The translations under genes and the position numbers were made by a program. Positions 15 to 34,306 of a DNA stretch of 36,023 bases are shown piece by piece. The stretch lies in NCBI GenBank assembly GCA_020352555.1, contig CP070680.1:1081389-1117411 (forward strand). Reading direction: 5' to 3'. Every line of letters begins with the position of its first letter. Within the stretch, counting starts at the first letter, position 1. The notes beneath the pieces are model-generated. The model was given only the letters and a program-made list of their open reading frames with translations. It was not told the origin of the DNA and searched no databases. This DNA comes from Caldifarciminota bacterium. GTDB taxonomy: Bacteria; Hydrothermota; Tepidihabitantia; Tepidihabitantales; Tepidihabitantaceae.

Positions 15-1730
15 ATGAAACCCAACCCTGAGTACAAACCCATCAAGGCCCCGAAAGGCGCCGAACTGTCGTGCAAGGGCTGGCACCAGGAAGCCGCCCT
101 GCGCATGCTGATGAACAACCTCGACGAGGATGTCGGCGAGAACCCGCGCGAGCTCATCGTCTACGGCGGCACTGGCCGCGCTGCCAGGAACTGGGACTGC
201 TACAAGGCCATTGTCCGCAGCCTGAGAGAGCTGGAGAACGACGAGACTCTGCTGGTACAGTCCGGCAAGCCGGTGGGCGTGTTCAAGACCTGGGCCCATG
301 CACCGCGCGTGCTCATCGCCAACACCAACCTCGTCCCGCACTGGGCCACCAAGCCCTATTTCGACGAACTGGAACAGGCCGGGCTGATGATGTACGGCCA
401 GATGACCGCAGGGTCCTGGATATACATCGGGACCCAGGGCATCCTGCAAGGGACATATGAGACATTCGTCGCTGCGGGCAGGAAGACCTTCGGCACCGGC
501 GACCTCGCGGGTAGATTGATCGTGTCCGGCGGGCTCGGCGGGATGTCCGGCGCCCAGCCTTTGGCAGCGACAATGGCAGGCGGCAGCTATCTCGGCGCAG
601 AAGTGGACCCGGCCCGGATCGAGAAGCGGATGAAGTCAGCAAAGCCGCGCTTTCTCGACGAGCGTATCGATGACCTGGACAAGGCCATCGAACGCGCGCT
701 CGAAGCCAGAGACAAGAAACAGGCACTGTCCATCGGCTGGTGCGGCAACATCGTTGACCTGCTCAAGCGGCTGATCAACCGGGATATCACCCCTGACCTC
801 CTGACCGACCAGACCTCTGCCCATGACGAGCTTCACGGCTATGTGCCGGTCGGCATGTCGTTCCCTGACGCGCTCGAACTTCGCCAGGCTGACCCTGAGG
901 GCTATCGCAAGGCCGCGTACAGCACCATGGCCGAGCACGTTCGCCTGATGCTCAAACTCCAGGAGCGCGGGGCCACGACATTTGACTACGGCAACAACCT
1001 GCGCGGCAAGGCAATAGAAGGCGGGTTCCTGCGCGAGGACGAGATAATGACTCCCGGCGTCATCGGGTCCTGGAAATATCCCGGGTTCGTGCCCGCATAT
1101 ATCAGGCCTCTGTTTTGCGAAGGCAAAGGCCCATTCCGCTGGGCAGCGCTCTCGGGCGACCCCAAGGACATCGCAGAGACCGACAGCATCATCCTCGAGC
1201 TGTTCCCTGACGACGAGCCGCTCTGCAACTGGATACGCAAAGCCGGGGACCAGATACCGTTCCAGGGCGTGCCCTGCCGCATCTGCTGGCTTGGGTACGA
1301 AGCCAGGGACAAGGCCGGTCTCGCGTTCAACAAGGCGGTGCGCGAAGCACGGGTCAAAGGCCCGATCGTCATCGGCCGCGACCACCTGGACTGCGGCTCG
1401 GTCGCCTCGCCCAACCGGGAGACCGAGGCGATGAAAGACGGGTCTGACGCGATAGCCGACTGGCCTCTGCTCAATGCCATGCTCAACGTTGCCTCAGGCT
1501 CGTCCTGGGTCTCGATCCACCACGGCGGCGGAGTCGGCATCGGTTACTCGATTCACGCCGGACAGGTAATCGTCTGCGACGGCACCGAGGAGATGGACGA
1601 GAGGCTGAGCCGTGTGCTCGTCAACGACCCGGGAACCGGCATCTGCCGCCACGCTGACGCCGGATACCAGCAGGCTATCGACATCGCCCGGGCCAGGGGC
1701 GTCAAGATACCGATGATGCCCGGAGACTGA
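15..1730 (+). CDS. hutU: urocanate hydratase
   Basis: 571 aa, close to the usual length of the family. Urocanate hydratase is a cytoplasmic NAD+-dependent enzyme converting urocanate to imidazolonepropionate in histidine degradation. Visible hallmarks: the N-terminal segment ending in [11 protein letters not shown] (about 51-61), the NAD-binding glycine-rich stretch [13 protein letters not shown] (about 172-184), the motif RICWLGY with Cys424, which aligns with the active-site cysteine of the family, and the signature [16 protein letters not shown] followed by a GGGVGIGYS stretch. The ATG is preceded by AGGAG at 5-9. No other hut gene is in the window; the upstream side is cut off by the window edge. 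The next gene starts immediately after its TGA, so the two are probably co-transcribed. Identification is secure from motifs. Confidence 0.97.
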
Positions 1731-22748: not shown

Positions 22749-22820
22749 AAAAAGGCCGCGCTAGGGTGCGGCTCGAGGTTGTGATGCTCTGTCTGACAAG
22801 GGACCGGTCCACGCCCTGCT
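22749..22820 (-). ncRNA. small-RNA family unit E, promoterless remnant / terminator
   Basis: On the minus strand the sequence shares GGGCGTGG...TCCCTTGTCAGACA with unit B (32451-32526), then a C-rich linker (ACAACCTC) and the hairpin GCCGC/GCGGC (22755-22772) followed by CTTTTT. Unlike other units it has no recognisable -35 or -10. It lies downstream of the Ycf48-like gene and may now serve as its terminator. Confidence 0.45.
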
Positions 22821-31448: not shown

Positions 31449-31757
31449 CTAGGGCATCTGTTTGATGACCTCCATCGTCACCTTTTCGGCCTCATCCATC
31501 GAGGTCAGCGGCCAGACATCCCAGCTGACGAACGGCCACATCGGATTCTCGGTGGCGATCTTCAGCAACTCCTCGTGCGAGTCCACTTCGAAAATGCCGC
31601 ATCCGCCCTTCTCAGCAGCGAAGGCGTAGATCGACTCTATCTTGCCCTGCTCCTTGAGCTTCTTGAAGTAGGCCATCTGCGCGGGCATCGCGGTATTCAT
31701 CACTTCCGGGGGAACCGGGCCTTCTGGTGCTGACTGCACTACCAGGAACTTCGCCAT
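31449..31757 (-). CDS. muconolactone-isomerase-like small protein (ferredoxin-like fold)
   Basis: 102 aa from the ATG at 31757, with AAGGAG 7-8 nt upstream. AKFLVVQSAPEGPVPPEVM, AYFKKLKEQGKIESIYAFAAEKGGCGIFEVDSHEELLKI and NPMWPFVSWDVWPL give the beta-alpha-beta pattern of the dimeric alpha/beta-barrel superfamily, close to muconolactone delta-isomerase and the DUF3303-like proteins. The true substrate is unknown; no aromatic degradation genes are nearby. Its promoter (31969-31996) leaves a ~200-nt leader rich in GGCC hairpins and a GGAGGATGT direct repeat (plus strand 31799-31807 and 31913-31921). Confidence 0.8.
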   Translation of the reverse strand: MAKFLVVQSAPEGPVPPEVMNTAMPAQMAYFKKLKEQGKIESIYAFAAEKGGCGIFEVDSHEELLKIATENPMWPFVSWDVWPLTSMDEAEKVTMEVIKQMP

Positions 31758-31944
31758 GGCGTGTCTCCTTTGCGTTTGCTGCTTTCGGGCCTGCCCGCCG
31801 GAGGATGTTGACCTCGCTCCGGGGCCGCGGAAACCACGCACCTGCGGTGCGACGCCTCCGGGAACGCCCCGGTCGAAGTTTCTACGGCCCTCCGTCGGCC
31901 GGCTTCGGCCTGGAGGATGTACGCCCTGTGAAGTGGTTATGGTA

Positions 31945-31966
31945 TTCCGGTATCCGAATGCCGGAA
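31945..31966. promoter_or_regulatory. operator-like palindrome at the transcription start
   Basis: TTCCGG (31945-31950), 10 nt, CCGGAA (31961-31966), directly downstream of the -10 box and covering the likely start point. Could bind a repressor or form an RNA hairpin. Confidence 0.4.
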
Positions 31967-31968
31967 AG

Positions 31969-31996
31969 AGTATAGGAGACCCTCCCGCCCTGTCAA
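31969..31996 (-). promoter_or_regulatory. promoter of the muconolactone-isomerase-like gene
   Basis: Minus-strand TTGACA (31991-31996, perfect), 16-nt G-rich spacer, TATACT (31969-31974). Same promoter style as the small-RNA units. Confidence 0.7.
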
Positions 31997-32021
31997 GCGC
32001 CTGTTTTCGACACACCTGCCC

Positions 32022-32102
32022 CTCCGCCCAATCTGTCTCTTGATCACTCCGTCACCTCCGCCCACTCTGTCTCTCTGTCACTTGGCCACACTGTCACTCT
32101 GA
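32022..32102 (+). repeat. 8-nt-period CACTCTGT-type array
   Basis: CCGCCCAATCTGT, CTCTTGAT, CACTCCGT, CACCTCCG, CC, CACTCTGT, CTCTCTGT, CACTTGGC, CACACTGT, CACTCTGA. Confidence 0.7.
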
Positions 32103-32122
32103 GTCTACACCATCCACACCAG

Positions 32123-32189
32123 TGAGCCGCGCGAAAGCGGGGCTCAGAAGAAGACGGACAATTTCGCCCAGGAACCCTCCGGGGTTCCG
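32123..32189 (-). ncRNA. small-RNA family unit F
   Basis: Minus-strand promoter TTGACA (32217-32222), 17-nt spacer, CACATT (32194-32199, weak). The predicted ~67-nt RNA starts with a perfect 7-bp hairpin GGAACCC-CGGA-GGGTTCC (32171-32188), then a pyrimidine-rich linker (GTCTTCTTCT) and the shared 3' hairpin GAGCCCCGC-TTTC-GCGCGGCTC (32124-32145). No U run follows, so termination may need help. Its -35 begins 2 nt after unit A ends. Confidence 0.45.
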
Positions 32190-32224
32190 ACCGAATGTGG
32201 TCCGCTCGCGTCCGGGTGTCAACA

Positions 32225-32294
32225 TCAAGAAAGAGCCGCGTAGTTGCGGCTCTATAGGGTTAGATTGTAGCTTTCTCGGGACTGACCTAAGTCC
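32225..32294 (-). ncRNA. small-RNA family unit A
   Basis: Minus-strand promoter TTGACA (32325-32330, perfect), 18-nt G-rich spacer, TATACT (32301-32306). The ~70-nt RNA opens with a 7-bp hairpin CGGGACT/AGTCCCG, continues with an A/C-rich linker ending TAACCCTAT, and closes with the 8-bp hairpin AGAGCCGC/GCGGCTCT (32232-32253) followed by TTCTTG, a good intrinsic terminator. No coding frame of note. Best-formed member of the family. Confidence 0.6.
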
Positions 32295-32450
32295 CGGGCC
32301 AGTATACTTCTCCCCCTGCCCCCATGTCAATAGCCGACCGCAGTCCGCTTGCCGCCCGCCCGGCCGCCGGGCCACAGGTGCGGTTTCTGCCCGTCACTCG
32401 GGCGCTCCCGCTCACCCTTGTCCCTGCCCTGCTGTCTGCAGCATTCCGAC

Positions 32451-32526
32451 GGCAAAGGAGCCGCGCATGCGCGCCGCGCGGCTCCGGGGTGACAAACCAT
32501 GTCTGACAAGGGACGATCCCACGCCC
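32451..32526 (-). ncRNA. small-RNA family unit B
   Basis: Minus-strand promoter TTGACG (32556-32561), 17-nt G-rich spacer, TATACT (32533-32538). The ~76-nt RNA contains GGGATCGTCCC, the CTTGTCAGACA segment shared with unit E, a linker ending TCACCCC, and a 10-bp terminator hairpin GGAGCCGCGC/GCGCGGCTCC (32457-32485) followed by TTTGCC. Lies 10 nt after unit C. Confidence 0.6.
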
Positions 32527-32571
32527 CGCATAAGTATACCCTAGACCCCTCCTGTCGTCAACCTCATCGAC

Positions 32572-32649
32572 AGCAAAGGAGCCGCGCATGCGCGCAGCGC
32601 GGCCCCTGAGGTGCGATGTCAATACTCACAGAGGACCAGCCACCAGTCC
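32572..32649 (-). ncRNA. small-RNA family unit C
   Basis: Minus-strand promoter TTGACG (32680-32685), 18-nt G-rich spacer, TATACT (32656-32661). The ~78-nt RNA starts GGGACTGG, has a GGAC/GTCC hairpin, a linker containing GCACCTCA and the terminator hairpin GGGGCCGCGC/GCGCGGCTCC (32578-32606, 9 of 10 pairs) followed by TTTGCTG. It sits just downstream of the CARDB-type tagged protein, before unit B. Confidence 0.6.
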
Positions 32650-32723
32650 CCACAAAGTATACTCCGACCCCTGCCCGGACGTCAAAAGGCCTTGGCAGAC
32701 CGCTTGCCGCCTTCCGCCGGACC

Positions 32724-33743
32724 CTATCGCTGAATGACCACCTTGCGGATTGCCGGCCTCTCTTCGCGGTCCGCTGGCCCGTAGGATGCGTAGCCTGCCG
32801 TCGGACGGCAGAAGTAGACTCCCGGCGCGAGGTGCCGGATGTCATTCTCCCCCGGCTCCAGGTCTGAGACCTTGCGACCCATGATGTCGTGTAGTTCTGC
32901 ACAATACCTGCCCGGTAGCGTCAGCGTGCCCCGACACACGCTCACTTGCGGTCGAGGAGCCTCGGTCCTCGGTGCGCCCTCCACAATCGCGGACGAGGGC
33001 TCGACATAGAACGAGTCTCTCACAACGGAATCCTGCCGCCCACTGATGTAGGCGAGCGAACACTGGCAGGCATGCCAGCCAATGGTGCAGAACGCGACCG
33101 GCCGAAAGGTGAACCCACGGTTCCACATCGGTCGGTGCAGCACAGTCCCCGTCGACTCCCGGAAGATGCCGGTACCGCCCGGGTCCCACATCTCGAAGTA
33201 CAGGCGGTACACCAGAGTGTCGTGGCTGCAGTTCCACGTCTGGACAGATGGTCGAATCGAGTCCCCGAGTACCACGGTGCCACGTGGTGCCCGAATCTCG
33301 ACCTGGAGCGTACGCGGGAACCTCACGACCACGAAGTCCTTGTGGCAGGTGTCGTTCGATCGGTTCTCGTCACCTCGCAGGTTGTGAGAGGCACGGGCGT
33401 AGTATGACCCGAACGGGCTTGCGATCCAGTAGACAGGGTACTCCAGCTCGACCCTTTCCCCCGGCTCGAGGTCCACGCCGTCAATGGTAGCGAAGACCAT
33501 CCTGCTGGTGTCGTAGATGTAGAACGCAACGTACACCAGCTCAGCGTGCCTGCCCAGGTTCCTGACCCTCACGACCGAATGGACTGTGTCGTCCTCCAAG
33601 GTCGTATCCTCCGGGCAGATGATGGTTTCAACAGCGACATCGTGCTCGTACAGGGATCGAAGCCCGGCGTGATTCGCCGGCAGACTGACGGCCAGCCTGG
33701 CCCCAGCCAGGACTGCAAACAGGACGATGAGAGTCATTCTCAT
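32724..33743 (-). CDS. secreted beta-domain (CARDB-like) protein with RKVVIQR sorting-type tag
   Basis: 339 aa from the ATG at 33743 (GGAGG at 33748-33752). Upstream frame to 33983 is repeat-encoded and not part of the protein. Signal peptide RMTLIVLFAVLAGARLAVS. Two Ig-like domains follow (about 30-125, with VAVETIICPEDTTLEDDTVHSVVRVRN and a DENRSNDTCHKDFVVV end, and about 130-250), in the style of CARDB domains. The C-terminus is the short tag ELHDIMGRKVSDLEPGEND ... APGVYF ... AIRKVVIQR, whose linker is longer than in the relatives. Own promoter; small-RNA units lie both upstream and downstream of it. Confidence 0.82.
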   Translation of the reverse strand: MRMTLIVLFAVLAGARLAVSLPANHAGLRSLYEHDVAVETIICPEDTTLEDDTVHSVVRVRNLGRHAELVYVAFYIYDTSRMVFATIDGVDLEPGERVELEYPVYWIASPFGSYYARASHNLRGDENRSNDTCHKDFVVVRFPRTLQVEIRAPRGTVVLGDSIRPSVQTWNCSHDTLVYRLYFEMWDPGGTGIFRESTGTVLHRPMWNRGFTFRPVAFCTIGWHACQCSLAYISGRQDSVVRDSFYVEPSSAIVEGAPRTEAPRPQVSVCRGTLTLPGRYCAELHDIMGRKVSDLEPGENDIRHLAPGVYFCRPTAGYASYGPADREERPAIRKVVIQR

Positions 33744-33765
33744 ACGACCTCCTCTGTTATGCCCC

Positions 33766-33794
33766 AGTGTAACCGTCCTCCCACAATCTGTCAA
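33766..33794 (-). promoter_or_regulatory. promoter of the CARDB-like tagged protein
   Basis: Minus-strand TTGACA (33789-33794, perfect), 17-nt G-rich spacer, TACACT (33766-33771). The ~17-nt leader holds AGGAGG. Confidence 0.65.
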
Positions 33795-33800
33795 CCCCGT

Positions 33801-33891
33801 TTCCGCTGACCGCAATCCGCTTCCCGCCCACTCTGTCTCTTGGTCACTTTGTCTCTCTGTCACTTCTGTCTGTCTCTCGGTCGCTCTGCAG
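33801..33891 (+). repeat. composite CCGC/CACT array
   Basis: CCGCTGA, CCGCAAT, CCGCTTC, CCGCC, then CACTCTGT, CTCTTGGT, CACTTTGT, CTCTCTGT, CACTTCTGT, CTGT, CTCTCGGT, CGCTCTGC. The clearest example of the two-part structure. Confidence 0.75.
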
Positions 33892-33902
33892 CTACCCCTT
33901 CG

Positions 33903-33976
33903 ACAACAAGAGAGCCGCGCTTGCGCGCGGCTCAGGAGGAGTAACATCATACCCGAGCGGTACCGGGCATGAGTTA
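33903..33976 (-). ncRNA. small-RNA family unit D
   Basis: Minus-strand promoter TTGCCG (34006-34011), 17-nt spacer, TATAAT (33983-33988, perfect) preceded by TGG. A 6-bp dyad GGGCAT/ATGCCC (33965-33981) spans the likely start point. The ~74-nt RNA has a CCCG/CGGG hairpin, then the linker TTACTCCTCCT, and a perfect 9-bp terminator hairpin GAGCCGCGC-GCAA-GCGCGGCTC (33912-33933) with TCTTGTTG after it. The linker contains CTCCTCC, complementary to ribosome-binding sites. Confidence 0.58.
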
Positions 33977-34019
33977 TGCCCAATTATACCACAAAATCCG
34001 AAATCCGGCAATGGGCCAT

Positions 34020-34240
34020 CCGCTGGCCCCTTGCCGCTATCCGCCGTCCGCCTTCAGCCCACTCTGTCTCTAGGCCACTCTGCCTCGGTCACTTCCGCTT
34101 TCCGCCATCCGCTTCCTGCTGTGAGCTGAGAGCTGTCGGCTGTGGGCTGCTGCTACTCCGCTTCGCCCACTCTGTCACTCTGTCTCTCTGTCACTTGGTC
34201 ACTCCTCTCAGGCCTTCCGCCCGCTCGGCCGCTCGACCAC
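34020..34240 (+). repeat. double composite array with an inserted 34-bp repeat
   Basis: First part: CCGCTAT, CCGCCGT, CCGCCTT, then CACTCTGT, CTCTAGGC, CACTCTGC. Second part: CCGCTTT, CCGCCAT, CCGCTTC, the CTGTGAGCTGAGAG repeat (34119-34152, copy of 19601-19634), then CACTCTGT, CACTCTGT, CTCTCTGT, CACTTGGT, CACTCCTCTCAGG. Confidence 0.7.
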
Positions 34241-34306
34241 GTGCTCTGCGACACAGGAGCAGGTGCCATCAGATGGCTCACCACTCGGCCGCTTGTCCAA
34301 TTGGGC

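Follow-up and report, generated by a model that had tools for sequence, protein, structure and literature searches.

A multicopy family of predicted, intrinsically terminated small RNAs in two gene clusters of a Caldifarciminota bacterium

The recurrence of short promoter-hairpin-terminator units on one strand of a Caldifarciminota genome raises a question: are these units a duplicated family of regulatory small RNAs (sRNAs), as an earlier note on this DNA had proposed, or do they repeat a promoter and a terminator for some other reason? We addressed this question in the window (the whole stretch of DNA analysed, 36,023 nt, G000:C1:1081389-1117411) and in the genome that contains it, a single 3.26-Mb scaffold that is approximately 89% complete. 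On direct reading of the sequence, all five minus-strand units named earlier (C, B, A, F and D) were present, and the predicted RNA starts and ends agreed with the earlier ones to within about 1-5 nt. The layout of a unit is TTGACR (TTGCCG in D), a 17- or 18-nt spacer, TATACT or TATAAT (CACATT in F), 5 nt and the RNA body. The features are as follows.

32656-32685, minus strand: promoter C, TTGACG-18-TATACT
32573-32650, minus strand: predicted sRNA C, ~78 nt, from the fold and a covariance-model match (7e-15); 5' hairpin 32632-32650, linker end CACCUCA, terminator 32578-32606
32533-32561, minus strand: promoter B, TTGACG-17-TATACT
32452-32527, minus strand: predicted sRNA B, ~76 nt, from the fold and a covariance-model match (2e-10); 5' hairpin 32510-32527 (6 bp, 6-nt loop), linker end UCACCCC, terminator 32457-32485
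32301-32330, minus strand: promoter A, TTGACA-18-TATACT
32227-32295, minus strand: predicted sRNA A, ~69 nt, from the fold and a covariance-model match (2e-9); 5' hairpin 32278-32295 (6 bp, 6-nt loop), terminator 32232-32253
32194-32222, minus strand: promoter F, TTGACA-17-CACATT, weak -10, directly behind unit A
32118-32188, minus strand: predicted sRNA F, ~71 nt, from the fold and a covariance-model match (7e-17); 5' hairpin 32171-32188, linker UCUUCUUCU, terminator 32123-32146 with a poor T tail
33983-34011, minus strand: promoter D, TTGCCG-17-TATAAT, extended TG
33907-33977, minus strand: predicted sRNA D, ~71 nt, from the fold (z -5.5) and a covariance-model match (1e-19); long 5' hairpin 33942-33976, unpaired linker ACUCCUCCU, terminator 33912-33933
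22755-22819, minus strand: unit E, a promoterless relative of B, sharing GGGCGUGG..GGUCCCUUGUCAGACA and the terminator, its stem partly broken

Unit E had already been described as a promoterless relative, and its kinship with B is borne out by the alignment of the 5' parts (z 6.0). A good promoter follows E and leads to the next gene rather than to a further unit. The units in the window lie beside genes for a secreted-looking protein without a Pfam match, an MIase-family protein and a Kelch/Por_Secre_tail protein. The MIase-family gene (31449-31757, minus strand) has its own arrangement: a consensus promoter, TTGACA-16-TATACT, at 31969-31996 on the minus strand is followed by a leader of ~210 nt (31758-31968) with an early hairpin, CCGGCATTCGGATACCGG.

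We examined how unusual the promoters are. The earlier reading of them as TTGACR-like with 17-18-nt spacers, weak at the -10 of F, was upheld: a consensus scan of 31800-34300 found six sigma70-like promoters, where shuffled sequences had 0.4 ± 0.5. The whole genome has ten TTGAC-18-TATAMT sites, eight of which drive units of the family; the other two (1516496 and 1607999) lead into genes and were set aside. Consensus promoters with shorter spacers number 77 (58 with 16 nt and 19 with 17 nt, counted by eye; one is that of unit B). A pattern running from promoter to GCCGCG had 13 matches, eight of them in the two clusters of the family, compared to none in a reversed control. Three promoter-plus-GCCGCG units (1271092, 1583472 and 2287708) have other 5' parts and were excluded from the family. 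Two of these loci, G000:1271092-1271207 (L035) and G000:1583472-1583588 (L036), consist of a promoter, ~50 nt and a GCCGCGC terminator with unrelated 5' parts; they are possible further sRNA genes.

The size of the family was determined with a covariance model (R1), a search proposed in the earlier note. The model was built from seven full units and applied to the whole genome, where it returned exactly 11 full-length units (E 1.8e-22 to 2.4e-9); U1, A, B and C had been left out of the model and were still recovered. After these, the next best match had an E of only ~0.001, and such matches were mostly to the terminator alone. The units thought to make up a family of six are real, but the family is larger and falls into two clusters: A, B, C, D and F in the window, and U1-U6 at G000:976640-977827, 136 kb away. 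The second cluster came to light through a pattern search for the hairpin and reading of the matches. Its neighbours, judged by eye, are a peptidase-like and a metallo-hydrolase-like ORF; at neither cluster do the neighbouring genes suggest a cis role or offer a functional hint. All of U1-U6 lie on the minus strand, like the units of the window. Because U1 adjoins a run of ~100 Ns, a scaffold gap (L031 2043-2142), the second cluster may be incompletely assembled and may hold more copies.

The arrangement of the copies bears on how they arose. Paired units are common, with a second promoter close behind the first terminator (U5-U4, U3-U2, C-B and A-F), and U1 and U5 are near-identical, recent duplicates. 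The intergenic DNA flanking the units (window 32000-34250; L031 2240-3440) is filled with degenerate repeats (CACTCTGTCTCTCTGTCACTTGGTCAC, CCGCTTGCCGCC/TTCCGCC and GACGAAGGAACGGGTGCCATCGGATGGCTCACC). Could the units themselves be a degenerating selfish repeat, such as a small palindromic element, that carries a promoter and a terminator by accident of origin? The copy number, the U1/U5 duplicates, the decayed copy E and the degenerate repeats round about would fit such an origin. All 11 copies, however, sit in two clusters on the same strand with promoters and terminators mostly intact, and neither transposase-like dispersal nor flanking target duplications were seen; we consider this explanation very unlikely.

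The earlier note had described the final hairpin as shared and conserved. It is indeed common to the units: GAGCCGCG..CGCGGCTC followed by a T-rich tail, which is poor in F. Yet the genome also uses it as an ordinary terminator at other places, where GAGCCGCG hairpins either act simply as terminators or immediately precede gene promoters (620348, 1000383 and 1524710), and near-identical hairpins adjoin ordinary genes in unrelated bacteria. The hairpin alone therefore does not define the family. We also observed a second putative type of RNA in two copies (L037 ~990-1080 and L040 ~1030-1100, minus strand), which share GGTCGATARCCCSCTCAGTGGTCGRYAAGGACC and a GCCGCG hairpin and are followed by a gene promoter.

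The placement of such hairpins ahead of gene promoters, and beside ordinary genes in other bacteria, invites another reading, in which each unit is an insulator: a strong promoter with an immediate terminator, making an RNA without trans function that shields genes or just fills intergenic space, the repeated hairpin being simply the genome's usual terminator. This reading leaves unexplained the family-specific promoter with its 18-nt spacer in most units, the 5' hairpin at a fixed distance and the tandem amplification to 11 copies, and we regard it as rather unlikely.

A conserved tail, TGNNGTCGA, lies 3' of the terminator in most units; GTCG occupies the same position of it in U2-U6, B, C, D and E, with GTTGA in A, GTGGA in F and U1 masked by N. 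In U2-U6, B, C, D and E the tail reads TGNNGTCG(A). That the conservation extends beyond the expected end of the transcript is an argument that the units descend from one another by duplication. With promoter and terminator set aside, some similarity remains between the 5' parts (55 pairs, mean z 1.5), and in the case of A and U4 it reaches across the clusters (z 5.8); the family is therefore real, and its architecture and kinship are established at the level of the DNA. The earlier proposal, that small RNAs were duplicated and their 5' parts diverged, gains support from the promoter type, the terminator, the tail, the homology between clusters, the U1/U5 pair and the fact that the minus-strand RNAs contain no unit-wide or common ORF. 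Divergence is greatest in the presumed recognition part, in agreement with the earlier note.

We then folded the initial 21 nt of each of the ten distinct RNAs, with +1 set at the sixth nucleotide after the -10. The minimum free energies summed to -80.4 kcal/mol, against -20.2 ± 5.9 after full shuffling and -25.0 ± 6.0 when the first four nucleotides were kept, and folding of the 5' parts was strongest exactly at position 1. A 5'-terminal hairpin forms in eight of the ten distinct units; D and U5 form longer hairpins instead. The hairpin had been called weak in B, C and D. This does not apply to B (GGGGCG-UGGGAU-CGUCCC, 6 bp) or to C (8 bp, including some G-U pairs), and D has its longer hairpin (5'-part fold z -4.3). 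A 6-bp stem with a 6-nt loop is common to A, F, U2 and B; U4 and C have hairpins with one additional base. Across the six units, the five outer stem pairs are 100% paired, clearly more than in slid controls (at most 73%), and pair 3 has undergone a compensatory change from G-C to A-U in F and U2. Covariation in this alignable stem is positive, but modest relative to shuffles (32/500).

The exposed hexaloops occur in multiple copies, and those of B, F and U4 contain GGA, which calls to mind decoys of the CsrB/RsmY type, in which the 5' loop would be the binding site for CsrA or another RNA-binding protein. A profile search of the genome (89% complete) detected no CsrA, however; GGA is found in only those three loops, and no motif is common to the loops across units. 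A decoy function thus appears quite unlikely.

Attention turned to the linker between the two hairpins. Immediately ahead of the terminator, its final ~10 nt are rich in C and U (CCCUCCA, CUCCUCCU, CACCUCA, UUUCCCA, CUUCCCA and UCUUCUUCU), with the exception of U6. The 16S rRNA ends in GGATCACCTCCTTT, a canonical anti-Shine-Dalgarno (SD) sequence, and GGAG-type sites are present at some window genes at least. When the last 12 nt were paired with AAGGAGGU, the sum was -61, whereas shuffled 5' parts gave -31 ± 7 (p 0.0005, the lowest value that the test could return), and the pairing was strongest in the segment directly before the terminator. U2, U4 and D pair best, C and U5 do so moderately, and U6 shows no such pairing; in the predicted folds of B and U5, the linker is largely paired. 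The exact SD ranked only 24th among 280 permuted probes; pairing with it is not unique, and the linker motif is therefore better described as CCCUCC-like.

On the opposite strand, the linker reads as an SD sequence, and in U2, U3, B and C this SD-like GGAGG is followed a few nucleotides on by ATG. The units could accordingly be read in the opposite sense, as small ORFs on the plus strand, or as cis-antisense or type I antitoxin RNAs. No plus-strand promoter was seen near the window units, the minus-strand RNAs share no ORF, and A, D, F and U6 have no suitable start codon. In addition, a genome search at BLAST sensitivity for loci complementary to the 5' parts yielded the units themselves, E and chance-level matches, and thus no second complementary locus. 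We judge these readings highly improbable.

Does the family occur elsewhere? Nothing convincing was found with R1 in 40 relatives (best E 0.03), and the 146 other phylum genomes searched, none of the same genus, had no match at E ≤ 0.001; among the genomes searched, there was no orthologue in another species. The pattern of terminator plus tail had no match in viral contigs and three single matches in GTDB contigs (an alphaproteobacterium, Geobacter and Kushneria), all of which proved to be unrelated terminators. The plasmids and phages searched gave no match. In the collections covered, the family is restricted to this genome. At the gathering score, neither the window scan nor permissive scans of Rfam matched the units; SorY, BjrC1505 and RsmY appeared in the permissive scans as weak matches far below that score and were rejected as identities. 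A search of the literature on candidate division WOR-3, a guess at the phylum, found no report of an sRNA.

Taken together, these results make it probable that the units encode sibling sRNAs that act by base-pairing, do not depend on Hfq and form a family specific to this lineage, with target sets that diverge between siblings. A cassette of promoter, RNA and terminator would have been duplicated in tandem, frequently producing neighbouring pairs, to give paralogous, intrinsically terminated RNAs of ~66-78 nt in two clusters. Each RNA would begin with a hairpin of its own (6-8 bp, variable loop) at the very 5' end; a linker of ~25 nt would come next, its C/U-rich end adjoining the shared terminator hairpin. 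That C/U-rich stretch would pair with the ribosome-binding region of mRNAs and block translation without Hfq; the variable linker and loop would aid specificity, and the 5' and 3' hairpins would protect the RNA. Changes in loop and linker after duplication would then have given each sibling its own set of targets. Transcription, SD pairing and targets are what we infer from sequence, and trans-acting antisense regulation is the most likely mechanism. Unit F, with its weak -10 and poor T tail, fits this account less well. A profile search of the genome detected no Hfq; because the assembly is only ~89% complete, the gene could be missing by chance. More tentatively, and on balance doubtfully, an apparently Hfq-less bacterium may be expanding a set of mutually orthogonal antisense regulators, under a dedicated promoter type with an 18-nt spacer, by repeatedly duplicating a cassette in which only loop and linker are rewritten. 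If the units are transcribed, a kept promoter and terminator scaffold with a changing presumed recognition part would permit direct study of sRNA birth by duplication and of action without Hfq.

Hfq-independent repression in trans is favoured because short RNAs elsewhere that combine a protected 5' end, a terminator and an accessible C/U-rich stretch pair with SD regions, LhrC without Hfq and NmsR from a tandem locus. Listeria monocytogenes has five copies of LhrC, lhrC1-4 at one locus and lhrC5 elsewhere; their CU-rich motifs bind the SD of target mRNAs, and Hfq is dispensable for that regulation (PMC4132741). The present family resembles LhrC1-5 in its multiple copies at separate loci and its C/U-rich stretch. 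Whereas the LhrC copies are virtually identical and carry three redundant UCCC motifs, the hairpins and linkers here differ, with one C/U-rich stretch before the terminator. NmsRA and NmsRB of Neisseria are likewise tandem siblings with their own promoters, and they carry anti-SD motifs (PMC5362039). They are two copies, 70% identical, whereas the 11 copies here have 5' parts that diverged strongly; we found no sequence relation between them and the family. Among the csRNAs of Streptococcus, AbcR and OmrA/OmrB, some siblings use Hfq. These groups comprise 2-6 paralogous sRNAs, in tandem or distal (PMC4211561), and OmrA/OmrB likewise keep their ends and vary the middle. Compared with them, the present family has more copies, its presumed recognition part is the most variable and Hfq was not detected; if transcribed, its 11 copies, against 2-6 in that review, would place it among the larger sibling-sRNA families, in a lineage without a match to any described RNA family. 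The Pxr paralogues of Cystobacter are also tandem, structurally diverging, recent and lineage-restricted (PMC5568312), but they have sigma54 promoters and 2-3 stem-loops, unlike the units here, and no sequence relation was seen. Among multicopy sibling sRNAs, the predicted RNAs described here are a new, lineage-restricted family, distinguished by copy number, by the spacing within its promoters and by the way in which the 5' hairpin has diversified.
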